A stretch of 64,000 nt of DNA. It comes from a virus. The position numbers and the translations under genes are program-made. The notes below the pieces were generated by a model. The model was not told where the DNA came from. It did no database searches and saw only the letters and a list, made by a program, of their open reading frames with translations. Positions 1,384 to 31,268 of this stretch are shown here, in pieces (the stretch's first letter is position 1; each line of letters starts with the position of its first letter). The stretch is taken from the IMG/VR virus record IMGVR_UViG_3300035698_030167, positions 1-64,000 of that record. One strand, written 5' to 3'.

Positions 1384-3837
1384 TTAAAAAAACTCTAAAA
1401 ACAAAGGTTCTGATTGTTTTTTTATTTCTTCTAAAAGATCTGTTTTTTCTTTTTCGCCTTGCGCAAGAAGATCTTCGCCATTAAGTTGAATCATTTCAGT
1501 ACCACCAGGAATACCGCTTTTAAATGTACTTCTTATATTTCCAAGAACTAACTTTGATTCAGCTAAAGTATATCTACGTATCCAATAATTAGTGTTTATT
1601 TCCTCTAGTGAGAGAGAACTTCTGTATCTTATAGCTACAGCTATTCCAGTGCCAGGATCTGGATAAATATATAGTTTTCCATCGCGTATTTCAAACTTCG
1701 TCAATGTTCCAAGAATGTTATTTAGATCTTGCTCAGTTGACATCGTTATGTAATAATCAGTTATAAATGATGTATAACCTGCTTTAAATCTTTGAAATAA
1801 ATATTGCATATAAAGATTTGTTATTAAATCTTCCCTTCCTTGATAATACATAAAAGGAAATCTTGGCTTCAATATAACTTCCATTATTAAATCTGGATCT
1901 ACTGTGGCAGGTATATCATATCCAATAGTATTATTGCCAGAAAGATTAGTATATTGAATGCTTTCATCTGCATTGCGCCAATAGTTATACCAATGAACTC
2001 CCATTTCTAAACTGTCTTCGATTTGTTCATCTGTTAGTTCAACTGGTATTGTTGGCTCTCCTAGTTTTGATCTAACCCATCTATAAAGTTCAGAATAATC
2101 TATAATCAATCCGGTTGCTGCTGCTCCATAATCCGAAGCGGCAAATCCCCAAATCAAAGATATAGCATCGTTTGATTCAGCTCCGCTTATAGCAACGTAT
2201 GAACTTGTGCCTTTTGTTGAGCTTTGTAATGTTAAGTAGTTATCGCTATCGCCTACTATCAACCCTGAAATAGAAGCAGCATCTATAGCATCTTTTATTT
2301 CTGTTAATGTAACAGCGGCACTGTTGCCTGCTCCGACTTTACAGTTTACCGTAGCTGAACTTGAATCAGTTGTTATTAAAACATTGTATAATGTAGATAA
2401 ATCAACCGCACTAGATAAATCAATAGTTCCAACAATTATGGCGCCTTCTGAATCTCCAGTTGTTGTAACAATATCTATTTCGTCAATATAAACTTGCGTT
2501 GAACCATCTGAATGAAAAAATACTCTTGTTGTTAATTCTAAATTTTCAGCAAAAACAAGTTCAGTAAATTTATTTTCCATTTCTGCTGGAGCAGTACTTT
2601 GAGAATAAGTTGCATCTGATTGTCTCCATGCTCCATTGGTATAATAATACCATGTGTTTCCAAGTTTTACTACATATCTAGTTCCAGTAGAAGAACAAAT
2701 TAAGTTTAAATCTGTTATTTCATTTTCTTTAAATCCAGTTCCAAAATAAACATCCACATATGGATCGTCTGCAGCATATTGTCCAAGAGCTGAAGTTTCA
2801 ACTGTATAGTTTGCTAAATGTTGATATAAGTTGTAAATGATTAGTTCATCAAATCTATACCAGTCTGTTGTATCCCCCTGGAATATAAATTTATTGCTTG
2901 TGTAAGTTCTAGTAAATCCAGTTTGTCCTATAGCTAACATATTTCCATCAACAAATAGTTGATAAATGCTTTCATTCCAACTAAATTCAAATGCATACCA
3001 AGTATCATACTTTAGGTTCCATAAACCTAAATCAATGTTTACTTGAGTATCGCCACTGCTATCATACATTTCAAGCAATAGATTTCCAGCAGTTAAACTG
3101 TCTCCAGCACCTTTATGTTTCAATGTTATTCTATCAGAATCTCCGCTTCCATTATAGACATCAAAAAGTTCTGCTGTTAAAGTTGGAGGATTTGGAAACT
3201 CTTGACTTCCTATTCCGCTTAATAAAGTTATGAGACTATTTCCGTCTGTCGGAGCTGTGATTAAAATGCTGTCTCCTGATACTTCAACTATTATTCTAAT
3301 GTTATTGGCATCAAGAAGTTCCGCAGTCGCGCCTTTGCCATCGATTTCAGCATAAATGGCATTAAATATGTCCGTCATGCTATCGCCAACTTGAAGAAAT
3401 ACTACAGTATCATCGTCATTTATTAAAGTGCTATTTACATATACTCTAAATTCATAGTTAGTATCACCAGCGATTGTTGGGTCTGTTGTAGCTACAAAAT
3501 CTTGTCTTGAATATCCATTATAAAATCCTGACTTTGCTCTAAACTTTATTGAACCTTCACTTGTCATTGTTGTAAAATTTAAGTTATTATAATTTAATGT
3601 TCCACCATTAACAAAACTGACATGCTGGCTAAATACTCCAAAGTTATCATTTACGGGATTTCCAGTAGTATCTCCATCAGCATCATTTATAGCATAATCA
3701 GCATTTAAAGTGTTATCAAAAGAAGAATAAAGCATTAATTCATCAGGATAACCAGCAAGTTGTATTCTACCTTCCTCTGTTCTTTCAAACTTAGTTGAAT
3801 CGCTATAATCTATAAAATTGAAACTTTCTTTGCTCAT
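1384..3837 (-). CDS. Large virion protein with LamG-like domain and neck-type C-terminus
   Basis: 817 residues. Residues about 30-350 look like a concanavalin/LamG beta-sandwich (DELMLYSSFDNTLNADYA near the start, ending TDWYRFDELIIYNLYQ), a fold common in phage tail and neck decorations. A beta-rich middle follows. The last 230 residues (from YRWVRSKLGEPTIPVELTD) look helical and resemble head-tail adaptor or neck proteins of myoviruses (weak inference). The ATG follows the next gene by 1 nt. Probably a carbohydrate-contacting structural protein made late. Confidence 0.7.
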   Translation of the reverse strand: MSKESFNFIDYSDSTKFERTEEGRIQLAGYPDELMLYSSFDNTLNADYAINDADGDTTGNPVNDNFGVFSQHVSFVNGGTLNYNNLNFTTMTSEGSIKFRAKSGFYNGYSRQDFVATTDPTIAGDTNYEFRVYVNSTLINDDDTVVFLQVGDSMTDIFNAIYAEIDGKGATAELLDANNIRIIVEVSGDSILITAPTDGNSLITLLSGIGSQEFPNPPTLTAELFDVYNGSGDSDRITLKHKGAGDSLTAGNLLLEMYDSSGDTQVNIDLGLWNLKYDTWYAFEFSWNESIYQLFVDGNMLAIGQTGFTRTYTSNKFIFQGDTTDWYRFDELIIYNLYQHLANYTVETSALGQYAADDPYVDVYFGTGFKENEITDLNLICSSTGTRYVVKLGNTWYYYTNGAWRQSDATYSQSTAPAEMENKFTELVFAENLELTTRVFFHSDGSTQVYIDEIDIVTTTGDSEGAIIVGTIDLSSAVDLSTLYNVLITTDSSSATVNCKVGAGNSAAVTLTEIKDAIDAASISGLIVGDSDNYLTLQSSTKGTSSYVAISGAESNDAISLIWGFAASDYGAAATGLIIDYSELYRWVRSKLGEPTIPVELTDEQIEDSLEMGVHWYNYWRNADESIQYTNLSGNNTIGYDIPATVDPDLIMEVILKPRFPFMYYQGREDLITNLYMQYLFQRFKAGYTSFITDYYITMSTEQDLNNILGTLTKFEIRDGKLYIYPDPGTGIAVAIRYRSSLSLEEINTNYWIRRYTLAESKLVLGNIRSTFKSGIPGGTEMIQLNGEDLLAQGEKEKTDLLEEIKKQSEPLFLEFF

Positions 3838-3838
3838 T

Positions 3839-4003
3839 CTATTCCTCTTCTAAATCTATTTTATAAGTGCCATTTGAAGACATTTCTATTATTGTGCCTT
3901 TATATTTTTTACCATCTTTTGATTTTACATCGCAGATTGGACTTTCTTCGTCTTTGTGTAAGATTCTATAGTTTTTATCTTTTGGTTTGATTGTTACTAT
4001 CAT
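3839..4003 (-). CDS. Small acidic-tailed protein, 54 aa
   Basis: Starts at ATG 4003 (MIVTIKPKDKNYRILHKDEE), because a longer upstream extension would overlap divergent + strand genes and their promoter. TAAAGATA lies at 4009-4016. Ends 1 nt before the virion gene at 3837, so the two are co-transcribed. Looks like a small SH3-like barrel (KYKGTIIEMSSNGTYKIDLEEE). Function unknown. Confidence 0.6.
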   Translation of the reverse strand: MIVTIKPKDKNYRILHKDEESPICDVKSKDGKKYKGTIIEMSSNGTYKIDLEEE

Positions 4004-4008
4004 ATTTT

Positions 4009-4016
4009 TATCTTTA
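4009..4016 (-). promoter_or_regulatory. Possible late promoter octamer TAAAGATA
   Basis: TAAAGATA 5 nt upstream of ATG 4003, at the left edge of a divergent intergenic region whose other side carries a sigma70-type promoter at 4025. Confidence 0.35.
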
Positions 4017-4024
4017 CTGAAGCG

Positions 4025-4053
4025 TTGACAAAAAATAAAAAATAATATAAAAT
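4025..4053 (+). promoter_or_regulatory. Sigma70-type promoter
   Basis: TTGACA at 4025-4030, 17 nt, TAAAAT at 4048-4053 (or TATAAA at 4046). Six nt before the first tiny gene at 4059. Confidence 0.7.
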
Positions 4054-4058
4054 GAAGT

Positions 4059-4220
4059 ATGAATAAAATGAAAGCATTGGCATTGTTGTTTGGCAATAAA
4101 ATTATATTTGGCGATGGCTATAGATATGTTCACATAAAATTTTGTAAAAAGTCAATTTTTGAAGTTGTGAATGAAGCTATTATCATACAGGGCTTATTTA
4201 TTGATATCACAGAATATTGA
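4059..4220 (+). CDS. Tiny-protein family member, 53 aa
   Basis: MNKMKALALLFGNKIIFGD... ends TEY. Belongs to a dispersed family of 37-95 residue proteins that begin M-[NED]-x-K-I-x-x-L-x-x-LF. First gene of a + strand run with its own sigma70-type promoter. Its stop overlaps the -35 box of the next promoter. Function unknown; likely an early protein acting on host machinery (inference). Confidence 0.6.
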   Translation: MNKMKALALLFGNKIIFGDGYRYVHIKFCKKSIFEVVNEAIIIQGLFIDITEY

Positions 4221-4245
4221 CAAAAAATAAAAGAAGCTTTATAAT
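4217..4245 (+). promoter_or_regulatory. Sigma70 consensus promoter
   Basis: TTGACA 4217-4222, exactly 17 nt, TATAAT 4240-4245; a perfect consensus. Drives the four overlapping small genes from 4253. Confidence 0.9.
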
Positions 4246-4252
4246 AAGTTAA

Positions 4253-4387
4253 ATGAATGAAAAAATAATAAAATTGTCTCGCTTGTTTTATGTTTATAAA
4301 GGGGATAATTATTGTTTAGCAAAAATATTTGGGCAAACTATTGTTTGTGATAAAATAACAAATAGAATGTTATATGGAAAAGCGTAG
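4253..4387 (+). CDS. Tiny-protein family member, 44 aa
   Basis: MNEKIIKLSRLFYVYKGDNY..., 44 residues, 7 nt after a perfect -10 box. N-terminus almost identical to the genes at 4526 and 5333 (SRLFYVYNPK). A second ATG (4257) is out of frame. The last base of its stop is the first base of the next gene's GTG. Confidence 0.65.
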   Translation: MNEKIIKLSRLFYVYKGDNYCLAKIFGQTIVCDKITNRMLYGKA

Positions 4388-4533
4388 TGAATAAAAAAAT
4401 GTTAGAGTTGTCTAATTTATTTTACATTTATGATCCAAAGGAATATGTTTATACAAAATCATTATTTGGGAATGCTGTTATTTATGAAAAAATATTAAAA
4501 ACAATAATTTGGATAGTCGTTTTTCATGAATGA
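4387..4533 (+). CDS. Tiny-protein family member, 48 aa, GTG start
   Basis: MNKKMLELSNLFYIYDPKEY..., 48 residues, from GTG overlapping the previous stop (TAGTG). Aligns with the neighbours over LSxLFYxYxPK and the pattern V-I-Y-E near residue 31. Unknown function. Confidence 0.6.
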   Translation: MNKKMLELSNLFYIYDPKEYVYTKSLFGNAVIYEKILKTIIWIVVFHE

Positions 4534-4687
4534 AAAAATAGCAAATTTATCTCGCTTGTTTTATGTTTATAACCCAAAAAAACATTATTGTCAAAATGAC
4601 GCTAATGGTCAACATTGGGTTATTTATGAAAACAGCGCTTTTCCAAGAATAGTGTGGATGTGGATTTATCATTATTATAATGAATGA
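4526..4687 (+). CDS. Tiny-protein family member, 53 aa
   Basis: MNEKIANLSRLFYVYNPKKH..., 53 residues. Start overlaps the previous gene's end through ATGAATGA, an arrangement repeated at the next junction, as expected of tandem duplication. Contains HWVIYENSAFPRIVWMW, matching VIYEKILKTIIWIV of its neighbour. Confidence 0.65.
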   Translation: MNEKIANLSRLFYVYNPKKHYCQNDANGQHWVIYENSAFPRIVWMWIYHYYNE

Positions 4688-4967
4688 AAAAATAGAACTT
4701 TTAAGTGCTATGTTTAGTAAATATGGAAAGCTCACTTTTTATAAAGTTATACATGAAAAAAAACAATGCATTATATTTATATTAACTTCAAAAGAAAATT
4801 TTAACAATATAATCATTGAGAGAGGTTCACATATACATGAATCTTACCATAAAAAGGAAAGGATACTTAAAATATATGGACCAAAAACAACGAAAGTTTA
4901 TAGTTTTTCTGTGCTAAATTTATTAAGAAATAAGTTGAGATTGAATGGAGTTTCTTTAGATGTTTGA
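4680..4967 (+). CDS. Tiny-protein family member, 95 aa
   Basis: MNEKIELLSAMFSKYGKLTF..., the longest member at 95 residues, begins in the same ATGAATGA overlap. The family-like N-terminus is followed by a lysine-rich extension ending LRNKLRLNGVSLDV. No recognised domain. Confidence 0.6.
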   Translation: MNEKIELLSAMFSKYGKLTFYKVIHEKKQCIIFILTSKENFNNIIIERGSHIHESYHKKERILKIYGPKTTKVYSFSVLNLLRNKLRLNGVSLDV

Positions 4968-4997
4968 TGGAAAAAATCAAAGGATTAATATTGTTGC

Positions 4998-5345
4998 GTG
5001 AAAGTAATAATAGCAGGAACAAGAAATATAACAGATAAAAAAGCTGTAGAAGAAGCGATAAAAGAAAGTGGTTTTGAAATAACTGAACTTGTTTGTGGTA
5101 TGGCTCGTGGTGTTGACGAACTTGGTTTTGATTGGGCTGAAGCAAATGATATTTCAATAAGAAAATTTTATCCGAACTGGAAAAAGTTTTATAAAGCGGC
5201 CGGCAAAGTAAGAAATAGAGAAATGGCTTTTTATGCTGATGCTTTAATTGCCGTATGGGATGAAAACAGCAAAGGAACTAAACATATGATTGAGTCTATG
5301 AGCAAATTAATGAAGCCGTTTTATGTAAAAATATGGAAAAAATAA
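4998..5345 (+). CDS. SLOG-fold protein (YspA/DUF2493-like), 115 aa
   Basis: Starts at GTG 4998. Rossmann-like pattern: MKVIIAGTRNITDKKAVEEA at the N-terminus, then LVCGMARGVDELGFDWAE and VRNREMAFYADALIAVWDENSKGTKH. These are the GxR, GxARGxD and RNxxM...D signatures of SLOG/DprA-like nucleotide-binding proteins, common in phages and in NAD-linked signalling. Likely binds a nucleotide or nucleotide derivative. Sits within the tiny-gene operon and overlaps the next gene by 13 nt. Confidence 0.8.
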   Translation: MKVIIAGTRNITDKKAVEEAIKESGFEITELVCGMARGVDELGFDWAEANDISIRKFYPNWKKFYKAAGKVRNREMAFYADALIAVWDENSKGTKHMIESMSKLMKPFYVKIWKK

Positions 5346-5804: not shown

Positions 5805-6399
5805 AAGTATTATAAAAGAAATTCTTCTTGAACAAAAAGAAAAAACCACTACATTATTTTATAATGTAGATTTATTTGTTCAGGAATTTCAAGATGAAGA
5901 GCCTGAAAAAACCGAAGAGCCAAAGCCAGAAGAAGAAGAAAAAGAAAAGCCAGAAGAAGAAAAAAAAGAAGAAAGCACTAAAACTTTCAGTAAAGTATTA
6001 ACAGAAGCCATTCATAAAATGAAATCAACTGGAGAACTTGCTGTTCCTCAACAAGATGCAGAAAATATTCAATCTTTAGAAGATTTGATTGATTATATTT
6101 CTGATAAAAAAGATAAAGGTAGTCCGATTATAGATAAACTTGCTCAAGAAATCATTTTATCTCTATCTGATGTTGGGACAAAACCAATAGAGGATGTAAT
6201 AAATGAAGGTGATAAAATATTAATTGATGTTGATTATGGATTAAAAAAAGAAGATAGCGTTGGACTAAAAGTTGTGAAGAATGCTGGAACAAACTCTGCT
6301 TCTATATTAATGAAAAAAGACGGAAAAATTTTAGCTTCTCCGTTTGATGTTGCGGCATTCAATCGTCAGATGGTTTATATCAGGAATTCGCTTGTATAA
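5794..6399 (+). CDS. Putative structural protein with acidic linker, 201 aa
   Basis: N-terminal helix, then a Glu/Pro/Lys-rich linker at about residues 35-65 (EEPEKTEEPKPEEEEKEKP), then a compact C-terminal domain ending NRQMVYIRNSLV. Low-complexity acidic linkers recur in the prohead genes of this phage (portal, scaffold), so a virion or assembly role is plausible. Stop and the next ATG overlap (TAATG). Confidence 0.65.
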   Translation: MKIKSIIKEILLEQKEKTTTLFYNVDLFVQEFQDEEPEKTEEPKPEEEEKEKPEEEKKEESTKTFSKVLTEAIHKMKSTGELAVPQQDAENIQSLEDLIDYISDKKDKGSPIIDKLAQEIILSLSDVGTKPIEDVINEGDKILIDVDYGLKKEDSVGLKVVKNAGTNSASILMKKDGKILASPFDVAAFNRQMVYIRNSLV

Positions 6400-7049
6400 T
6401 GCTTAAAAACATTAGGAACTACTATAATGAAGAGTATGTTCAAGAACTGCTTGAAGAATATAAAAAAACTACAATCATAAGAAATAAAGTTCCTGTTTAT
6501 AAGAATTTAAAGTTAGAAGGCAAAATAGTAAAAGAAGTAGAAAAGATTGTAAATGCTATTATTATGGTTTATAGATATTATATATTTGAGCCTTATGAAG
6601 ATTTGAAACAACATGCTTTAATGTCGTGTTATACAAATTTTTTAAAATTTAATAAAAGTAAAGGAAGCAGTTTTAATTTTTTTAGTTTAATAAGCAAAAT
6701 AAGTTTATTGAACTATACGACAAGAAAGAAAAAACATAGAAATCATCAAAATATAGAAGATCAACTACAACTAGAAAGCAAAATAGAAATAGATTTTGAT
6801 TTTTTTCTAGATAATTTAGAAGAAAATTTATTTGGTATTGTGGATGAGAATTTTGTTGGAACAAAAAGAAAACGATATGAAAAAATAGCATCTTTAATGT
6901 TAGATTATTTATCTAAAACTAAAAAATTTGTTAGCAAATCAGATTTATATGCTTGGTGTAGAAGTTATGGAATAAAAACTTCAAACGTTAGAGAATTTAT
7001 TAATGATGTGTCAACCCATAGAGTAGATCTCTTTGATGGAGTAAAATAA
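6399..7049 (+). CDS. gp55-like late transcription sigma factor
   Basis: 216 residues. Residues 60-120 (VYRYYIFEPYEDLKQHALMS...NKSKGSSFNFFSLISKISLL) match the sigma region 2-like core of T4 gp55: aromatic -10 contacts, EDLKQ.A...C..N..KFN, then a basic stretch TTRKKKHRN. T4 gp55 is 185 aa. It would bind host core RNA polymerase and direct it to late promoters. Placed at the head of the packaging genes. Confidence 0.75.
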   Translation: MLKNIRNYYNEEYVQELLEEYKKTTIIRNKVPVYKNLKLEGKIVKEVEKIVNAIIMVYRYYIFEPYEDLKQHALMSCYTNFLKFNKSKGSSFNFFSLISKISLLNYTTRKKKHRNHQNIEDQLQLESKIEIDFDFFLDNLEENLFGIVDENFVGTKRKRYEKIASLMLDYLSKTKKFVSKSDLYAWCRSYGIKTSNVREFINDVSTHRVDLFDGVK

Positions 7050-7147
7050 TGTCTCCAGATATAGCAGCAAGAGGACTTTTGCTCATGAATAATATTCCAG
7101 AACTTGAGTATTCTGATTTAAGTAAAAATAAAATTTTTAGGACATAA
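7049..7147 (+). CDS. Small protein, 32 aa
   Basis: MSPDIAARGLLLMNNIPELE..., 32 residues, start overlapping the sigma factor stop (TAATG) and ending 2 nt before the next gene. Tight packing supports translation; function unknown. Confidence 0.5.
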   Translation: MSPDIAARGLLLMNNIPELEYSDLSKNKIFRT

Positions 7148-7149
7148 AA

Positions 7150-7551
7150 ATGGAAGTTGAAAATTCTATTGACAAAATTTTAAGCGAGCTTGACACTAGC
7201 GGCGATACTAAAGAAACAGAAATAGCCGTAAAACAAAAAACAGAAATAGTTGATGCATCAGATATAAATGAAGTTGAGCAAGAACTTATTAAACAAACTC
7301 TTGAAGATAGAAAAATGGCAGATAAAATATTTAACTTGTTTTTTTCTGACTTGGGTTTTAAAAAAGATAGAAGTCAGGCCTCAAAAGAAGCAATAAATAA
7401 AGCTTTGGAATTAAAAATTGCAGCAAGCAGAAATATTATAGAATTGTTAAAAATAAAAAAACAAGAATTTAATAATCTTGGTATTTTTGTTAATACTCAG
7501 TCTAGTAAAAAAGTTGGCATAGATATAGATAATATTGCTAAAGAACTTTAA
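7150..7551 (+). CDS. Putative small terminase subunit, 133 aa
   Basis: Acidic N-terminus then two long helices (EQELIKQTLEDRKMADKIFN; ASKEAINKALELKIAASRNI), the architecture of myovirus small terminases. Position directly before the large terminase matches T4 gene order 16-17. No sequence-level signature, so the call rests on fold and synteny. The 3' end overlaps a convergent tiny gene on the - strand by 14 nt. Confidence 0.55.
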   Translation: MEVENSIDKILSELDTSGDTKETEIAVKQKTEIVDASDINEVEQELIKQTLEDRKMADKIFNLFFSDLGFKKDRSQASKEAINKALELKIAASRNIIELLKIKKQEFNNLGIFVNTQSSKKVGIDIDNIAKEL

Positions 7552-7687
7552 TACAAAAATGTTTTAGTTTTATGAACTTTTTCTTACCATTCTCATAAAA
7601 AATTTTGCTTTCATCACTAAAAGGAACTTCAAAAATTACAATCCTTCTGCTACTAAATAATCCTGCTAGTTCTTTTATTTTATTCAT
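7538..7687 (-). CDS. Tiny-protein family member, 49 aa
   Basis: MNKIKELAGLFSSRRIVIFE..., 49 residues; N-terminus matches the M-N-x-K-I-x-x-L-x-x-LF pattern. Antisense to the late block, read with its partner at 7693 from a consensus sigma70-type promoter at 7879-7907. Confidence 0.55.
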   Translation of the reverse strand: MNKIKELAGLFSSRRIVIFEVPFSDESKIFYENGKKKFIKLKHFCIKVL

Positions 7688-7692
7688 GTGTG

Positions 7693-7872
7693 TTAATGAT
7701 TATGCGTTAAATAATCATTTGTATTTATTATATAATAATCATCATGAAAACTATAATGAATGCCCGACTCAACATAACAATAATCATTAAACAATATTAA
7801 AAAAGCATCATGCGCAGAAACACCCTTCGTATCATTAAATAATTTAATAATACCTAATATTTTTCCACTCAT
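7693..7872 (-). CDS. Tiny-protein family member, 59 aa
   Basis: MSGKILGIIKLFNDTKGVSA..., 59 residues, ATG 7 nt after the -10 box. Histidine and tyrosine rich at the C-terminus (HYSFHDDYYII). An island of early-type genes inserted antisense between two late packaging genes. Confidence 0.55.
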   Translation of the reverse strand: MSGKILGIIKLFNDTKGVSAHDAFLILFNDYCYVESGIHYSFHDDYYIINTNDYLTHNH

Positions 7873-7878
7873 ATATAA

Positions 7879-7907
7879 AGTATATAATATATTTATATTT
7901 TTGTCAA
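7879..7907 (-). promoter_or_regulatory. Sigma70-type promoter
   Basis: TTGACA (7907-7902), 17 nt, TATACT (7884-7879). Points left into the two tiny - strand genes and overlaps the upstream region of the terminase. Confidence 0.8.
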
Positions 7908-7927
7908 TATTTTGGAAAGTTAAACTT

Positions 7928-9805
7928 ATGAATGAAAAAGAAAAACTATTTATAGAATCATTAAAAAATAAAATAAAAAATTATTCAATACATACTACTC
8001 CAAAAGAAGCTTTATCAAAAGCGTCTAAACAATTTTACGATACTCAATATAATAATGGAAAAGTAGAAAAGATTGATACTGGCATAGAAAAATATCTTTG
8101 TTCTGCTTCTGCTTATTACTTTATTCATAGATATGCTTGGATAAATTTTCCTGGAATTGGCATTATACCATTTAATTTATATTATTTTCAAAAAGAAATA
8201 ATGAAAGAAATAATTAATTTTAATCGCGTAGTATTTTTAAAAACAAGACAATGCGGCATTTCAACTCTTTTTTCTCTTTATTGCTTATGGAGATGTTTAT
8301 TTAAAGAAGCTGAATATATTGATGTTGTTTCACTTAAACAAAAAAAATCAAGAGAATTTGTAGCAAAAATGGACGCAACAATAAAAAGACTTCCACCATT
8401 TTTACAAGTTCCTATAACAAACAGCAATCAAACTGAGGTTAAATGGGCCAACTCATCACAAATAGTTTCTGAAACCGCTTCTGAACGTTCAGGTAGAAGT
8501 GATTCTTTATCTCTTTTAATTTTAGATGAAGCAGCACATTATATTTCCGATAGATTAACAAGAGGAATAATTGGTGCTGCTAATCCAACTTTATCAAGAA
8601 CAGGTGGATCCATGTTTGTGATTTCTACGCCCGCTGGAGTATCTGGAGCAGGCAGCTGGTATTATGAACAAGTTAGACAACTTCAAATTGATGGGAATGC
8701 TAAAGAAAAAAAACTTATTGAAATAGATTGGTTTGAAGTGCCAGACATATTAGAGATTAAGCCTCATAAAGGATATAATAATTTATTAAACCAATACATA
8801 AAAAAAGATTACTATAATAATCCAAAAATCAAAAATGAAATGAAAAACTTTTTTCAGCCTGTTAGCGAAAATTGGAAGGGAAATCCATGGCTTAGACATC
8901 AACATAATGATCTTCAAGACATGCTTTACAAACAAGAAATTTTACACAGCTTTATTGTTTCTGGCAATCAGGTATTTGAAGAAGGAATTCTTAAAAATAT
9001 AGAAGATTCTATTGTAGAACCAATAAAAGCCAACAAGCTTGGTAAAATGGGGTTTAAGGGATTTTGGATGTGGAGAAAACCTATTCCTGGTCATCGCTAT
9101 ATTATTGGCGTAGATGTTGCAACAGGAACTGGTAGAGATACTTCTTCTATGGAAATTTTTGATGTTGGCAATTATGAGCAAGTAGCAGAATATAAAGGCT
9201 ATATTTCTACCCCAGCTTTTTCTAGAGCAATAAAAAAAGTTGCTCGTTACTATAATGAAGCATTCCTTATTATTGAATGTAATGGTATTGGCGAAGCTAT
9301 TTTTAATGGAGTATATTATGATGAACAAGACCCTTATATAAATCTTTTCAAACAAAAAAAGACAAAAAATAATATAACAAGAATGACTGGATGGATAACA
9401 GATGTAAAAACAAGGAAACTTGTTACTAATGAACTTATAGATTGGTTATCTGTTGAAGAGTTATGGAGCCAGATTAAAATTTATTCAAAAAGAGTATGGG
9501 AAGAAGCAATTACATGGATATGGGAAGGTAATAAACCTATTCACGCCTCTACTGCCGGTGATGATATTTTAATAGCTCTTGCTTTAGCTATTTATCATAG
9601 AGATTTAGCTACTAAAACTGGAGAAAGCTTTTTAATAAATGAAAAGGGAGAAATCGTAGAATATGATAGTAAAGATAAAGTGGATGAAGATGCAATAGAA
9701 GATGATTTTGATGTTGTTAAAGCAGGCGGTCAAGAAGATGATGAAGATTTTTTTAAGAAAAAATATAATGTATCGCAAGAAGAATATACATGGTTGATTG
9801 GATAA
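7928..9805 (+). CDS. Terminase large subunit (gp17-like)
   Basis: 625 residues (T4 gp17 is 610). ATPase: KTRQCGIST Walker A around residue 105, LLILDEAAH Walker B around residue 195. Nuclease: IGVDVATGTGRD carrying the first catalytic Asp, LIIECNG, and the final DD in STAGDDILIALALA. It powers DNA packaging through the portal and cuts genome ends. ATG 7928 is chosen over an upstream TTG because GGAAAG lies at the right distance. Ends in an acidic tail. Confidence 0.95.
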   Translation: MNEKEKLFIESLKNKIKNYSIHTTPKEALSKASKQFYDTQYNNGKVEKIDTGIEKYLCSASAYYFIHRYAWINFPGIGIIPFNLYYFQKEIMKEIINFNRVVFLKTRQCGISTLFSLYCLWRCLFKEAEYIDVVSLKQKKSREFVAKMDATIKRLPPFLQVPITNSNQTEVKWANSSQIVSETASERSGRSDSLSLLILDEAAHYISDRLTRGIIGAANPTLSRTGGSMFVISTPAGVSGAGSWYYEQVRQLQIDGNAKEKKLIEIDWFEVPDILEIKPHKGYNNLLNQYIKKDYYNNPKIKNEMKNFFQPVSENWKGNPWLRHQHNDLQDMLYKQEILHSFIVSGNQVFEEGILKNIEDSIVEPIKANKLGKMGFKGFWMWRKPIPGHRYIIGVDVATGTGRDTSSMEIFDVGNYEQVAEYKGYISTPAFSRAIKKVARYYNEAFLIIECNGIGEAIFNGVYYDEQDPYINLFKQKKTKNNITRMTGWITDVKTRKLVTNELIDWLSVEELWSQIKIYSKRVWEEAITWIWEGNKPIHASTAGDDILIALALAIYHRDLATKTGESFLINEKGEIVEYDSKDKVDEDAIEDDFDVVKAGGQEDDEDFFKKKYNVSQEEYTWLIG

Positions 9806-24790: not shown

Positions 24791-24940
24791 ATTTTTTGAA
24801 AACATGTAACAGAAAGAAACTATAATCAAAGAACTACAATATACCATAACAGTATTATGAAATGATAAAAATCCTAAATCAAATGAAAAAGCTGGAATAA
24901 AATAACACGCTAAAAATGATAAACTATATTTAGCTATCAT
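24776..24940 (-). CDS. Small membrane protein, 54 aa
   Basis: MIAKYSLSFLACYFIPAFSF... with two hydrophobic segments. Start overlaps the end of the last MKIRNGFVSNSS gene by 11 nt and the end runs 15 nt into tRNA-Gln. Plausible but not certain. Confidence 0.4.
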   Translation of the reverse strand: MIAKYSLSFLACYFIPAFSFDLGFLSFHNTVMVYCSSLIIVSFCYMFSKNSPVV

Positions 24941-25418
24941 GTTTTACCTCACATTCAACTTTATGATTTGTTTCAAATAAAAAATATAATACAATTTCTT
25001 TTAATAAATTAGTTATTCCGGTATTATAATCATTATGCATAATAGTAAAAGTTTCCATTATAATATTATTTTTCTTTCTTGTTATCTTTATATTATTTTC
25101 GCATAAAACAATTTCCGCAAGTTCTTCGTTACTTATAATATTATTTACCTTTTCTAAAAGATTTTTATCTTCCATTACTGTTCTTTCTAGTGCTCCAAAC
25201 CAAGAATCTTTAAATTCGCTTTCTATTATTTTTTTTACATATCCGGCATTATTAGTTAATCTTTTAGTTATTTCTTTTTGTAAATTTTTCTTATCAAACC
25301 ACGTCCAATTATATTTACTAATGAGAGTGTGAATAAAATCATCATAATCTATATCATGTATTTTTATAATATAAGAAGCGCTTGAACTATTACTAACAAA
25401 ACCATTTCTTATTTTCAT
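24930..25418 (-). CDS. Ser-rich-leader paralog 7 (divergent), 162 aa
   Basis: Begins MKIRNGFVSNSSSASYIIKI: the leader shared by seven tandem genes, here with S-to-A and F-to-Y changes. The body is unrelated to the other copies at sight, helical, acidic. Last of the array downstream of a radical SAM gene. Function unknown. Confidence 0.8.
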   Translation of the reverse strand: MKIRNGFVSNSSSASYIIKIHDIDYDDFIHTLISKYNWTWFDKKNLQKEITKRLTNNAGYVKKIIESEFKDSWFGALERTVMEDKNLLEKVNNIISNEELAEIVLCENNIKITRKKNNIIMETFTIMHNDYNTGITNLLKEIVLYFLFETNHKVECEVKHDS

Positions 25419-25838
25419 TTAACAGTTTCTTGTTCCTGTGAATATTTTTATTGGCTTGTTAATTCCAATCTTTTTTTGAAACACTTTAAGTTTTTCTATT
25501 TTTTGTGATAAATCCATTTCTTTGCTTTCAAGATAATCGCCATCACCGTTAACATCTGCTAGTATTATTCCCATTATATTTTTAAAATCAAAGCCTTCCC
25601 AGTCAAAATAAGTGATTTCATAATTGCTATTGCCATTAGCGTAATCATGAAATAAATCATTTATAACATCTTTTTTTATGGCATATTCATTTACACTTCT
25701 TCTAAACTCATCTTCTAAATCAAGTCCAATCATATTTATTAAGTATTTTTCTTTATTTATTGGCTTATCTAAATGAAATCCTAAAATTACAAAACTACTA
25801 GAAGAACTATTGCTAACAAATCCGTTTCTTATTTTCAC
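25419..25838 (-). CDS. Ser-rich-leader paralog 6, 139 aa, GTG start
   Basis: MKIRNGFVSNSSSSSFVILG, GTG start overlapping the previous stop (GTGA). The body contains YFDWEGFDFKNIMGIILADV and DGDYLESKEMDL, an acidic alpha/beta domain. Stop abuts the next ATG directly. Confidence 0.82.
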   Translation of the reverse strand: MKIRNGFVSNSSSSSFVILGFHLDKPINKEKYLINMIGLDLEDEFRRSVNEYAIKKDVINDLFHDYANGNSNYEITYFDWEGFDFKNIMGIILADVNGDGDYLESKEMDLSQKIEKLKVFQKKIGINKPIKIFTGTRNC

Positions 25839-26176
25839 CCCATACTCCAGCTAAAAACTTCTTTTTTGTTTTCATTCACAAGATTTTTATATTTATCGAA
25901 TGCTTCACGTTCGCCATCTTCTTCTGCTTCATCAGAGCCTTTTTTATATTCTTTTAAATCAATGCTCTCAAAAGTGTATGAGTAATCCATAGGGCATAAA
26001 TCGCCAATATAAGCCACTTTTTTTTCTAGGAAACTGCCATAACAAACAATAGCTTTTATTACTGCTTTCTCATAAGGACTTAGTTGCTCAAATGCTTTTT
26101 CATGATTTTCTTTTGTAGTCATAAGCAAAAAGCTTGAACTACTTGAATTACTAACAAATCCATTTCTTATTTTCAT
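25835..26176 (-). CDS. Ser-rich-leader paralog 5, 113 aa
   Basis: MKIRNGFVSNSSSSSFLLMT followed by a helical body with EKAVIKAIVCYGSFLEKKVA and an acidic stretch. Same leader, unrelated body. Unknown function. Confidence 0.82.
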   Translation of the reverse strand: MKIRNGFVSNSSSSSFLLMTTKENHEKAFEQLSPYEKAVIKAIVCYGSFLEKKVAYIGDLCPMDYSYTFESIDLKEYKKGSDEAEEDGEREAFDKYKNLVNENKKEVFSWSMG

Positions 26177-26177
26177 T

Positions 26178-26453
26178 TTATTCTCCCCAAGTTATATTTT
26201 TATCATTGATTCCTATCTTTGCTAAAAACCCATCCATATCAAAATTATTCATAAAAGTGTTTCCTTTTATTACTTTTCTAGTTTCACTAATACTCCATTT
26301 ATCTTCACTATCATTAAAAACTTCAAACTCTATTCTTTTAGATTCTTCTATATGATTTTTAATTTGATATATTTGTTCAGGAGATAGATAAAATTTATCT
26401 ATTATAAAACTGCTACTGCTGCTATTACTAACAAATCCATTTCTTATTTTCAT
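26178..26453 (-). CDS. Ser-rich-leader paralog 4, 91 aa
   Basis: MKIRNGFVSNSSSSSFIIDK; the body FYLSPEQIYQIKNHIEE...FLAKIGINDKNITWGE is homologous to the two genes upstream (F-L-[ST]-x-x-Q-I-x-x-I and a final KIGI-N...V/I..E). Confidence 0.83.
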   Translation of the reverse strand: MKIRNGFVSNSSSSSFIIDKFYLSPEQIYQIKNHIEESKRIEFEVFNDSEDKWSISETRKVIKGNTFMNNFDMDGFLAKIGINDKNITWGE

Positions 26454-26714
26454 TTATTCCTCTGTATAATATACGTGATTTTCACTTACTCCTATTTTTT
26501 TTAATAAATTACTAAACTCTTCGCTATGGTTGCGAACATTATAGCCAGCAATGTAATGTTTTTCATCGTAAAAATACATTCCTCCTTCGTAATCATCTTC
26601 AATAGAAACAGTCCAGTTTCCTATTTCTTTTATTTGACTTTCCGTTAAAAAACTTTTAGCTATAATAAAACTACTGCTACTGCTATTACTAACAAATCCA
26701 TTTCTTATTTTCAT
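26454..26714 (-). CDS. Ser-rich-leader paralog 3, 86 aa
   Basis: MKIRNGFVSNSSSSSFIIAK, body SFLTESQIKEIGNWTVSIED... ending KKIGVSENHVYYTEE. Member of the three-gene subgroup with conserved bodies. Confidence 0.83.
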   Translation of the reverse strand: MKIRNGFVSNSSSSSFIIAKSFLTESQIKEIGNWTVSIEDDYEGGMYFYDEKHYIAGYNVRNHSEEFSNLLKKIGVSENHVYYTEE

Positions 26715-26717
26715 AAT

Positions 26718-26972
26718 CTATTCCCCCAAGTAAACAAATCTTCTGTTTATGCCAAGTTTCTCTAAAAAATTCATAGCGCTTGGATCACAATAGTAAATAT
26801 TACTACAAGAAACATAATTTTCTTCAATGCTTAATTTTAAGCAATCATCTTCATCTGATTGAGTTTTTAGCCAGTTTTGAAGTTTTATTATTTGTTCTGG
26901 GTTTATAAAAGATTTTGCAATAACAAATGAAGATGAACTGCTATTGCTAACAAATCCATTTCTTATTTTCAT
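26718..26972 (-). CDS. Ser-rich-leader paralog 2, 84 aa
   Basis: MKIRNGFVSNSSSSSFVIAK, body SFINPEQIIKLQNWLKTQSD... ending EKLGINRRFVYLGE. Same subgroup. ATG coincides with the stop region of paralog 1. Confidence 0.83.
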   Translation of the reverse strand: MKIRNGFVSNSSSSSFVIAKSFINPEQIIKLQNWLKTQSDEDDCLKLSIEENYVSCSNIYYCDPSAMNFLEKLGINRRFVYLGE

Positions 26973-27361
26973 TAATATCCTCCACCATGTTCCATTATTA
27001 AATCATCAGATTCGTAATTTATATTTTCATTGCAAAGCAATGGCTCTACTCCTTCGCCTTCACTACTAAAACTTCCATGATAAAGAATCATATCGTTTTT
27101 AATAATTTTTTTTATAACTTTTGTTACTCTATCTTCTCCATAACAATACTCTTTCATGTATTCTTCAACTGAAATTTTTTCTGCATTGTTGTAAATGCAA
27201 TTAATAAGTGAATTAAATATTGATTTAAATGGAGAATTTTTTAAGGCTTCTAACTCAATCTTAAAAAGATCAATTAGTTTTTCTTTTGTTAGTTCATCTT
27301 TTACGCCAATAATAAAAGATGAACTCGAACTATTACTTACAAAACCATTTCTTATTTTCAT
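26972..27361 (-). CDS. Ser-rich-leader paralog 1, 129 aa
   Basis: MKIRNGFVSNSSSSSFIIGV, helical body (KEKLIDLFKIELEALKNSPF), ends MEHGGGY, a Gly-rich tail. First of the array, 9 nt after the radical SAM gene, with AGGAGAATG at its start. Confidence 0.83.
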   Translation of the reverse strand: MKIRNGFVSNSSSSSFIIGVKDELTKEKLIDLFKIELEALKNSPFKSIFNSLINCIYNNAEKISVEEYMKEYCYGEDRVTKVIKKIIKNDMILYHGSFSSEGEGVEPLLCNENINYESDDLIMEHGGGY

Positions 27362-27370
27362 AACATTCTC

Positions 27371-28414
27371 CTAATATAAATCAAAATACGGACACATTCT
27401 ACTTTCAAGCTCATTTTTTTTCATACTTTTTCTAAACTTTTTTGCTTCTTCGCTCATCCACACATCTTCAACAAAATCATTAGCTTCTATTATATTTATG
27501 GGTTCATATCCTTTTTCGCCTTCAAGAAAACTACATGCATATACTTTTGCTTTAGCATTTATGTAAATACTAAAATGGAAGCTTTCGCAAGGTTCAACAA
27601 AAAGATTGAAATTTTTATAATCTCCCATAGCTTTAGCTGCTTTTAATACTGTTGGTGCAGAACAACTGTCAAATCCAATTGATACATCTTTTCTTTTTGC
27701 GTATTCTATTAATAATTGCATTTTGTCGATAGATTTCATTGGTGTCAAAGTATTTCTTTTTCCTTTTGGTTTCAATAAAAGAAAAACAATAGCATTTAAA
27801 TCTTTTAATCTATAATCTTCTTTTGCTTTATCTATTAGTTCCAAACAACTATCAAAAGTTTCTACTGATAAAAGTTTATGAATGTTTACTTGTTTTAGCC
27901 CATATTTTCCTAATTTTTTTATTGCTTCAAAACATATTTTATCATCATAATGAGAAACAGCTACAGCTCCACAATATTTTACTAAAATTTTTGCCAAGCC
28001 GTTAGTTAAATTATAACCATTTATAGTTATGTTAGGAACAACATAGTTATAATCATTATTTTTACAATAATGCATCATTTTAAAAAGATCTGGATTAGCC
28101 TCTAAATCACCTATACCAAATGCAATTTGCGTTAAACTTTTAGGAAGTTTATGAAAAACTTTTTTAAAAGTTTCGAGATTCATGTTTTCACCTCTTGGTG
28201 TATTTGATTTATAACACCAAGTGCACGGAGTTCCAATTCCATGGCAAATAGTAGAAACTTCAATATCTGCTATTTCTGGACCGAATGGAGAAAAATCTGG
28301 ATCTTTTTGCATATTGCTTCCCCATCTCATAAAAAATCCAGTATTTTTATTAAATACGTAGTTATATTTTGTGGATTTTAAAATTTTTGTATTTTTTGTT
28401 TCTATCATTTTCAT
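27371..28414 (-). CDS. Radical SAM enzyme heading the Ser-leader array
   Basis: 347 residues. N-terminal CHGIGTPCTWCYKS gives a C-x6-C-x2-C cluster motif, a spacing variant of CxxxCxxC. Barrel segments: AFGIGDLEANPDLF, VPNITINGYN, AVSHYDD. The C-terminus carries further Cys (FDSCSAP, FVEPCESFHFSIYINAKAKV, YACSFLEGE, MCPYFDLY) in a SPASM-like auxiliary cluster region. Such enzymes commonly modify peptides; the seven downstream proteins are natural candidate substrates (inference). ATG 28414 has no clear ribosome site; MIETKNTK at 28408 is an alternative. Confidence 0.82.
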   Translation of the reverse strand: MKMIETKNTKILKSTKYNYVFNKNTGFFMRWGSNMQKDPDFSPFGPEIADIEVSTICHGIGTPCTWCYKSNTPRGENMNLETFKKVFHKLPKSLTQIAFGIGDLEANPDLFKMMHYCKNNDYNYVVPNITINGYNLTNGLAKILVKYCGAVAVSHYDDKICFEAIKKLGKYGLKQVNIHKLLSVETFDSCLELIDKAKEDYRLKDLNAIVFLLLKPKGKRNTLTPMKSIDKMQLLIEYAKRKDVSIGFDSCSAPTVLKAAKAMGDYKNFNLFVEPCESFHFSIYINAKAKVYACSFLEGEKGYEPINIIEANDFVEDVWMSEEAKKFRKSMKKNELESRMCPYFDLY

Positions 28415-28462: not shown

Positions 28463-29986
28463 TCAATTAGTATCGTTTGTTGTGCTTCTCGCAACATAAG
28501 ATTCACTCCAACAATTAGTAACAACATCAAGAGACTTTAAGTTAAACGTAAATTTTGAATCATATTTTTTCTTACATTCTGCGCAAAGCCATTTATCATA
28601 TATAGATGTTAATGGATGTTCTCTTGAATTCCATTTTTCGCAATCGCTACATTTAACAATATTTTCTATTTTATTTTGTTCTATACATTTATAACAATAT
28701 TTTTTATTATTTTTTTTTATTGCCTTTTTTTCCAAAACAAAATTATTACAATAATCACATTTCACTAAAATTTTAGCACAATCTTGACAAAAAAAGTTGC
28801 CATCTACATCTTTTTGCATTTGACTTTTCAACTTTATTGAGGAACAATTCACACATTGTCGAACTTCTTCTCTATAACAGTTTGCACAAATAATCTTTTT
28901 ATCATCAATATAACAAATATTCGTTTCTTTTATTATTTTCTTGCCGCAAAGAGAACATATTCCATAATAAATATTACATAAAGATATATTGCTTTTTATA
29001 AGATTGCTAAGTCCTTTTCTATATTCAAAAACTTTACTATTTACAATTTGTTTGTTTTCAAAAACTTGAACTCCGCCACCGCCATTGCGAGAAACAAGGT
29101 GCAAAGAAGGCAAAGAAAAGCTAACTTTATCATTATAAATAAAAGAACTTTTGTTATTTTTAAAGTGTAATAAATCTATCGTGTATTTTGAAACAAAGTT
29201 ATCATTTATTTCTACAACTTTTTTATTCATTATTTTTTGAATAGATTTGGTATTTAAAAGTTCTAGTGGAAAAAATTTAACAACATTTATATTATTTTTT
29301 GCATCTAGTAATGCCCAGCTCCTAGATATAAATTTATCTATTTCTATTCCGCTGTATTCCTTTTTTACTCCATCTGTAATATATATCATTGCTCTATTTT
29401 TGTCGCTAATAATACCAGGCAATCCTGTCCATATAGCTTGAGAACTTTCAAGATTTAAGCAAGAAGACCAACTTTCAGCAGTAGAGCATAAAAACCAGTC
29501 TGCAAAGTTTAAAGAAAGAACTATTTCCATTTTTCTTTTTGGTAATTTTTTTACTCCTACAATTTCAGTTCTTTCCTTTATAACTTGCTCAATAACATTA
29601 ATTGACAAAGTTTCTAAACCATCAATATAACGTGCTTCTTCATTTCCAGATTTAGTATAATAATCTATCAAAGCTTTTTTAATTTTTATTTTTTGTTTAT
29701 CAACACTAATTTTATTTTCTCCAAAATTTTCATAAGAAACATTATAATACAAGACAAAACTTTTAAAAAAATATTGAAATAATTTCCATCCTTCATCAAA
29801 ATATTCCAAATTTTTTTCAGGTATTTCGAGTCTTTTCCTTAAATCTTTAGAATTTCCAAGTATTTCCTTGTAATAATTATCTACAAATGGATTGTATATT
29901 AAATACTTGAATTTTTTTAAGCTTTCTTCATCTAAATCAAAATGTTTTTCAACAATGTTAAAAATTTTGTTTAAATTAGAAATCAT
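28463..29986 (-). CDS. SWSSC-family paralog with zinc knuckles (1), about 507 aa
   Basis: Start set at ATG 29986 (MISNLNKIFNIVEKHFDLDE), aligning with the other paralogs; the upstream MKMKMK extension only reads the acidic repeat of the previous gene out of frame. Core motif at about 165-215: LSLNFADWFLCSTAESWSSC, then G-L-P-G...DKNRAMIYITDG. C-terminal half has at least eight CxxC pairs (CSLCGKK, CANCYRE, CVNCSS, CQDCAK, CDYCNN, CYKC, CSDCEKW, CAECKKK), probably a zinc-ribbon array. Function unknown. Confidence 0.8.
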   Translation of the reverse strand: MISNLNKIFNIVEKHFDLDEESLKKFKYLIYNPFVDNYYKEILGNSKDLRKRLEIPEKNLEYFDEGWKLFQYFFKSFVLYYNVSYENFGENKISVDKQKIKIKKALIDYYTKSGNEEARYIDGLETLSINVIEQVIKERTEIVGVKKLPKRKMEIVLSLNFADWFLCSTAESWSSCLNLESSQAIWTGLPGIISDKNRAMIYITDGVKKEYSGIEIDKFISRSWALLDAKNNINVVKFFPLELLNTKSIQKIMNKKVVEINDNFVSKYTIDLLHFKNNKSSFIYNDKVSFSLPSLHLVSRNGGGGVQVFENKQIVNSKVFEYRKGLSNLIKSNISLCNIYYGICSLCGKKIIKETNICYIDDKKIICANCYREEVRQCVNCSSIKLKSQMQKDVDGNFFCQDCAKILVKCDYCNNFVLEKKAIKKNNKKYCYKCIEQNKIENIVKCSDCEKWNSREHPLTSIYDKWLCAECKKKYDSKFTFNLKSLDVVTNCWSESYVARSTTNDTN

Positions 29987-31268
29987 CTTCATCCTCATCT
30001 TCATCTTCATCTTCAAGATTACAAAAACAATATTTAAGCGAATCTTTTTCTAACTTAAGCAACCCTTTATAATATCTAAATCCAAAATCATCTTTACAAT
30101 AATGCTCTTTTGTTTTTTTATTAACTACAATGCTTTGATGACCGTAATTACCTGATTTTAAGTATCCGCGTTTATTTGGAAAATATTTTGCCTTATTTTT
30201 TTTAGCTATAATAATGTTAGTCGTATCTTGATAAAGAAATGCTAAATATTCTTCAAATTCATTAATATCGTGATAAAGAAGTTCCATATAATATCGTCCA
30301 ACAAAACTAGAACTATCACTAAAACGCATATTAAAATATTTACTTGCTAAATTTTCTAAATTACAAAACAAAGGATATTCTCTTACAAAATGAAAACATT
30401 CTTTATTTGTTTCTTTTTCTCTAACAGTCAATATCCAACTTCTAGTTAATATTCTATCTACTTTTATTTTTCCATACTCCTTCTTTGTTCCATCTGTAAT
30501 ATATATCATTGCTCTGTTTTTGTCGCCAACAAGCCCAGGCAGTCCTGTCCAAAACGCTTCTTCGTATTGACTTTCAAGACTTAAACAAGAACTCCAATTT
30601 TCAGCAGTAGAACATAAAAACCAGTCTGCAAAGTTTAAAGATAATACTAAATATAGTTCTTTATTTGGAAACTTTTGAGTTCCTATAATTTCAAGATTTC
30701 TTATTATTTTAGATTCAAGGATTTTTACCAATTCCTTATCTTTAAGAAGATCTTTATAAAAAACTTCAATAATTTTTTTACCATTTTTTTCATGAAAAAC
30801 TATTCTATCTTCTTTCGTAAAGTTTCTAGTCCCAAAATTAATTTTCTGCCCTTTTGAATGTAAAAATTGTTGAATGTTATTATCAAAACTGAAATCAAAA
30901 ATAGAATTAAACAAGTTATTTTTATAATAATCAACTAAAGCTTTTTTAATTTTAAATTCCTGATTCTTGTATATTACTTTATTTTCATTAAAGTGTTTAT
31001 ATGTTATTCCTGTCGAACGGTAAAATGAATCAAAAAAATGTCGAAATGTTTTCCACCCTTCATCAAAATTGATAAGCAAATTACCAGATAGCGGGATTTT
31101 TTTGCGCAAATTTTTTGTATCGCCAAGTATTTTTTTATACATTGGGTTTACATTTGGTTCATAAAATAATCTATATTTAAATATACTCAAGCTTTTTTTT
31201 GTTAAACAAAAAAAATCTTTAACTAATCGATAAATTTCCAACTTATTGATGAGATTTTGATTAGCCAC
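29976..31268 (-). CDS. SWSSC-family paralog without zinc tail (2), 430 aa
   Basis: GTG start with GGGAG before it. Core LSLNFADWFLCSTAENWSSC and FWTGLPGLVGDKNRAMIYIT as in the paralogs. Instead of zinc knuckles it ends CFCNLEDEDEDEDEDDF, encoded by GATGAA repeats (about 29978-30012). Probably truncated by repeat slippage; its repeat overlaps the next gene's start. Own consensus promoter. Confidence 0.78.
   Translation of the reverse strand: MANQNLINKLEIYRLVKDFFCLTKKSLSIFKYRLFYEPNVNPMYKKILGDTKNLRKKIPLSGNLLINFDEGWKTFRHFFDSFYRSTGITYKHFNENKVIYKNQEFKIKKALVDYYKNNLFNSIFDFSFDNNIQQFLHSKGQKINFGTRNFTKEDRIVFHEKNGKKIIEVFYKDLLKDKELVKILESKIIRNLEIIGTQKFPNKELYLVLSLNFADWFLCSTAENWSSCLSLESQYEEAFWTGLPGLVGDKNRAMIYITDGTKKEYGKIKVDRILTRSWILTVREKETNKECFHFVREYPLFCNLENLASKYFNMRFSDSSSFVGRYYMELLYHDINEFEEYLAFLYQDTTNIIIAKKNKAKYFPNKRGYLKSGNYGHQSIVVNKKTKEHYCKDDFGFRYYKGLLKLEKDSLKYCFCNLEDEDEDEDEDDF

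Follow-up and report, generated by a model that had tools for sequence, protein, structure and literature searches.

What does a virus gain from a radical SAM enzyme whose gene heads a row of seven small genes, the products of which resemble one another mainly at their N-termini? The locus raising this question lies in the window, a 64,000-nucleotide stretch (positions 1 to 64,000) of the virus record IMGVR_UViG_3300035698_030167. This record is a viral contig of 78 kb that carries genes for terminase, portal and major head protein along with many tRNA genes. The earlier note on this DNA had described seven closely spaced genes with a common leader, downstream of a gene for a 347-aa radical SAM protein, and the minus-strand open reading frames (ORFs) confirm this arrangement, the seven products starting MKIRNGFVSNSSSSSF (hereafter, the tag). 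The features are as follows:

27371..28414, minus strand: radical SAM enzyme, 347 aa, with a SPASM/Twitch-like C-terminal part; PHROG family phrog_7293 (E 2.3e-78); Cys residues C57, C64 and C67, and extra invariant C251, C276, C294 and C341 in a 78-row alignment
26972..27361, minus strand: tagged protein 1, 129 aa, body family F4; C-terminal EHGGGY
26718..26972, minus strand: tagged protein 2, 84 aa, body family F0
26454..26714, minus strand: tagged protein 3, 86 aa, body family F0; structure modelled
26178..26453, minus strand: tagged protein 4, 91 aa, body family F0
25835..26176, minus strand: tagged protein 5, 113 aa, body family F7
25419..25838, minus strand: tagged protein 6, 139 aa, GTG start, body family F10; C-terminal GTRNC
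24930..25418, minus strand: tagged protein 7, 162 aa, body family F15; conserved tag form ending SSSASY

Because neighbouring genes abut, overlap or leave gaps of a few bases, and the AGGAG of the first tagged gene falls on the stop codon of the enzyme gene (TAGGAG), the locus reads as one operon. The 78,027-base record holds no further tag copies beyond these seven, whose proteins represent five body families, each with relatives in other phages. The subgroup of three genes at 26178-26972 that had been singled out previously is real, forming one body family with 43% identity to the middle copy. The last tag had been called degenerate, a description that we correct: its SSSASY ending is a conserved variant, as body-family homologs in three other loci (L008, L059 and L077) read the same.

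Just upstream of the enzyme gene, at 28463-31268 on the minus strand, two adjacent and related ORFs of 517 and 430 aa have a common core, LVLSLNFADWFLCSTAE..SSCL, and the first ends with repeated CxxC zinc-ribbon-like motifs; searches of Pfam and PHROG gave no convincing match to either. The region 24645-60054 of the window also contains 28 tRNA genes among small ORFs, all on the minus strand and covering most amino acids.

The tag and the proteins that carry it

Tags were identified with a scorer requiring at least 11 of 14 tag positions, which found 314 in 80 loci selected by the enzyme and none in the same sequences reversed, so the matches are not due to chance. A tblastn search with the bare tag returned no matches, probably because its Ser run was masked as low complexity. 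Among 482 distinct tags, the 16 residues are close to fixed at K2 (99%), R4 (99%), G6 (95%), F7 (98%), V8 (96%, otherwise Ile), S9 (98%), N10, S11 and S12 (each >99%) and S15 (95%), and only Phe and Tyr occur at position 16; positions 3 and 5 vary freely, and conservation is absent from residue 19 on. Rare replacements of F7 are mainly Tyr, His and Trp, and S9 is not essential, being Ala in ∼2% of tags. At every Ser position both AGY and TCN codons are used, and this switching at fixed residues indicates that selection acts on the tag as protein; together with freely varying third positions, it rules out an element acting at the DNA or RNA level. A recent DNA repeat or duplication, or gene conversion, is ruled out for the window set as a whole, as its 48-nt tag regions differ pairwise by 3–14 nt with the peptide nearly invariant, and the bodies fall into five families.

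The tagged proteins have a median length of 131 aa and mostly span 80–300 aa; 471 of them comprise ∼26 body families of at least two members and 61 singletons. Profile comparison revealed almost no kinship between the families, and members without the tag are almost never encountered. In the one tagged protein modelled (the product of 26454-26714), the tag is predicted to be disordered (pLDDT <50 for residues 1–11) ahead of a folded beta-alpha-beta-beta-alpha-beta body (mean pLDDT 76.5), a common ferredoxin-like arrangement for which structure matches are middling (best Z 8.6). Among the tagged proteins of loci L008 to L202, some families have their own conserved C-terminal tails (GAGRNG, HISHH, WYDG, GTRxC and EGGY), and a final Tyr is enriched over other ORFs.

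Linkage of enzyme and tag across viral genomes

Scanning viral contigs with the tag gave 76 loci, and a scan in the opposite direction, using only the enzyme, yielded 80. Starting from the enzyme, tags were found within 10 kb in 76 of 80 loci, all 314 of them on the enzyme's strand. The four tagless loci are mostly explained: the record of one (L197) carries three tags at other positions; in a second (L134), a gene just upstream of the enzyme belongs to a body family but its tag has decayed; in a third (L163), a gene of a body family is truncated where the contig ends; and the last (L174) is a 14.7-kb fragment. When enzymes more than 80% identical were collapsed, tags were present in 84 of 90 loci, with 32 loci having a tag within 200 bp and 63 having the nearest tag downstream. 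No third family was conserved within 8 kb on the enzyme's strand, the best reaching 9 of 90 loci as compared to 84 of 90 for the tags. Starting from the tag, the enzyme lay within ∼10 kb in 44 of 75 loci, always on the same strand, and phrog_7293 was present in 38 of 50 whole records (35 of 47 when three records chosen by the enzyme are left aside); pseudotevenviruses have their tag genes ∼20 kb away from the enzyme. The enzyme family is missing from the other 12 of the 50 records. One 261-kb record, IMGVR_UViG_3300010049_000010 (loci L029 and L290), has six tag genes and five other radical SAM genes without phrog_7293; it may be incomplete, or a different enzyme may serve the tag. The earlier note had made its reading depend on leader genes and radical SAM genes being neighbors elsewhere, and they are so in both search directions. 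We thus conclude that the enzyme and the tag are tightly and specifically linked.

As an explanation for this co-occurrence, shared ancestry alone is weakened by two comparisons. In a panel of 17 T4-like phages, which was fully concordant, six have both enzyme and tag (RB16, RB43, KP27, Miro, GAP161 and Vibrio phage D479), although these represent only about two independent lineages, and 11 have neither (T4, RB69, RB49, CC31, 133, 44RR2.8t, Aeh1, KVP40, nt-1, phiW-14 and S-PM2). Among contigs of at least 100 kb chosen via an unrelated gene, nicotinate phosphoribosyltransferase, three had both, one had the tag only, none clearly had the enzyme only and 27 had neither (Fisher's exact p∼0.0009, or 0.0035 if a distant enzyme relative, E 5e-34, found without a tag in contig G080 is counted). 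A raw pattern match containing a stop (contig G060) was discounted in this set, and control sets obtained via portal, RNR and ATPase queries had too few long contigs.

A bacterial origin was considered and rejected. The enzyme was not found in 14 named cellular genomes, and a scan of 85,000 genomes yielded only six confirmed tag loci, five of which have a whole or partial enzyme in the same locus. These six are in metagenome-assembled genomes (MAGs) named Treponema, Spirochaetia, Pseudomonadota, Lokiarchaeota and Heimdallarchaeota, and may be viral contigs. The loci from MAGs named Lokiarchaeota or Heimdallarchaeota (L122, L123 and L124), possibly archaeal virus contigs, all have tag genes, and the latter two have the enzyme as well, preceded by five tandem tagged genes in L123 and on the opposite strand in L124. 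In locus L008, from a related phage, the DNA polymerase and ribonucleotide reductase ORFs (1624-5007 and 6142-8988) appear to contain intein-like insertions.

The enzyme and its nearest known relatives

The three radical SAM Cys and C251, C276, C294 and C341 are invariant in 78 of 78 aligned sequences, many of which have an insertion between the first two radical SAM Cys. PF04055 matches 16 of 20 members of the enzyme family and PF13186 matches 17 of 20, the window protein scoring 19.2 bits for the latter, below the cut-off of 21.5; curated models match the enzyme only weakly, and most are of radical SAM/SPASM types. Its structure model (pLDDT 95.7) matches radical SAM structures with Z of 13–25, the best being SuiB with bound precursor peptide (Z 24.6, rmsd 3.2, 308 residues), followed by SkfB (22.3), CteB (20.1), anSMEcpe (19.8) and ChlB with leader (18.8). 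The CxxxCxxC-type motif and the predicted fold place the enzyme in the radical SAM superfamily, and the C-terminal extension with its invariant extra Cys is that expected of a SPASM/Twitch enzyme, in which the four extra Cys suggest a single auxiliary cluster. The closest structural neighbors of the model are peptide and protein maturases. A canonical fused RRE is not seen, since the model has strands and no helix before residue 80, although its alignment to SuiB already starts at residue 4.

By analogy, the phage system appears to operate in the manner of a radical SAM maturase whose partners bear a leader. The SuiB/SuiA, SkfB, CteB and ChlB systems are alike in fold, in the Cys of the extra cluster, in the conserved N-terminal stretch of the partners and in the adjacency of partner genes, whereas the phage partners are many, are longer proteins with conserved bodies of their own, and are encoded without a conserved protease, exporter or RRE gene nearby. 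Because of its precursor type and gene content, the system falls outside the RiPP definition: the tagged proteins are not short precursors, with a median of 131 aa and a folded body predicted in the one modelled, and the lack of any third conserved family near the enzyme leaves no sign of a RiPP protease, exporter or separate RRE. A second comparison is with anSME, in which one SPASM enzyme likewise serves many substrate proteins via a short motif, and some of which act on Ser. The tagged bodies, however, are neither sulfatases nor of one fold, the phage motif is at the extreme N-terminus, and the anSME motif [CS]xPxR occurs in none of 481 tagged proteins within residues 1–22 and in one anywhere. 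Finally, triceptide enzymes form three-residue cyclophanes, as when MscB joins Phe C4 to Ser C-beta (PMC11002830), and F7-V8-S9 of the tag has the same i,i+2 Phe-x-Ser pattern. A cyclophane at F7-S9 would fit the aromatic replacements at position 7, but it is a guess from the residue pattern against which tags with Ala at S9 speak; a change at N10, S11 or S12 would be at least as likely.

A proposed modification system and its alternatives

The earlier note had proposed a modification or leader-recognition system with small proteins as substrates. The part of this proposal that is well supported, by the linkage and by the maturase-like structure, is that the phage enzyme is dedicated to small tagged proteins; as for modification, we favor, with a probability of roughly 0.58, a SPASM/Twitch-type maturase that acts on many small phage proteins by modifying their common N-terminal tag. 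The locus would then be a dedicated protein-modification unit, whose enzyme would recognize the flexible, nearly invariant tag (K2, R4, then G-F-V-S-N-S-S) of otherwise unrelated small proteins and install a radical-dependent change inside it. The likeliest sites would be within F7-S12, because substitutions of N10, S11 and S12 are extremely rare, position 7 nearly always holds an aromatic residue, and this stretch is fixed while the bodies differ. The modified tag might confer a property common to all carriers, such as attachment, targeting or protection. We infer the tag as substrate, as well as the site, chemistry and purpose of the change, from these patterns. More broadly, and with somewhat less than an even chance, large phages may practice a general radical-based tagging in which one enzyme marks an expandable set of unrelated proteins with a common chemical handle, akin to a sorting or conjugation tag.

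The conserved tag could, however, be a docking site only. The main rival explanation, which we consider unlikely, is that the tag docks the enzyme as RiPP leaders do and that the body is modified, for example at tails such as GAGRNG, HISHH, WYDG or GTRxC. Docking via a leader is what the nearest structures display (SuiB with SuiA, ChlB with leader), several body families have conserved tails, and certain final residues are enriched in tagged proteins relative to other ORFs (Gly, 18 vs. 6%; His, 10 vs. 1.2%; Cys, 4.9 vs. 0.9%), in counts where same-family members are not independent. Yet the bodies, with almost no kinship between families, offer no common residue or motif for one enzyme to act on, and the strongest constraint is in the tag, including Ser, Asn and Phe residues that plain docking need not fully fix.

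That the tag is a targeting or packaging signal, by a logic comparable to T4 capsid-targeting sequences, and that the enzyme is only a co-regulated neighbor or acts elsewhere, strikes us as improbable. One short N-terminal tag on unrelated bodies does fit sorting, as do tag-bearing records without the enzyme, but enzyme and tag co-occur and go missing together, and no third family is conserved with both. A third alternative, in which the enzyme would produce or change a small molecule, as viperin does, for the tagged proteins to bind, sense or deliver, is very improbable. In its favor, viperin structures match the model too (Z 18–19), but peptide and protein maturases match it better (Z 20–25), and the enzyme carries the additional Cys characteristic of SPASM/Twitch enzymes.

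Neither Pfam nor NCBIfam contains a family for the tag, the NSSSSSF motif had no match in open-access papers, and the databases and open-access papers searched contain no description of a phage radical SAM enzyme tied to such a tag. In PHROGs, the enzyme family phrog_7293 and phrog_7397, which matches the tag weakly, are both annotated as of unknown function without a stated link. These results point to a previously undescribed phage system, present in many large phages, that modifies, or works through, the tag, and they bring an orphan radical SAM family and ∼480 so far uncharacterised phage proteins together in a single system that makes a clear, testable prediction. Modification of the tag, if it occurs as we favor, would give unrelated phage proteins a post-translational modification in common, for which we know of no precedent. 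The system is carried by cultured phages of E. coli and Klebsiella (RB16, an E. coli phage, KP27 and Miro) and is therefore testable at once; in RB16 the enzyme is RB16p156, and the tagged proteins include RB16p106 and RB16p111. The enzyme gene itself is split or interrupted in several phages and loci (RB43, IME-CF2 and vB_CsaM_leB; L058, L084 and L055): in RB43 it has in-frame stops and lies in two pieces, in leB and IME-CF2 it is annotated as two genes, and the copy in Vibrio phage D479 is overlapped at its 3′ end by a homing endonuclease.
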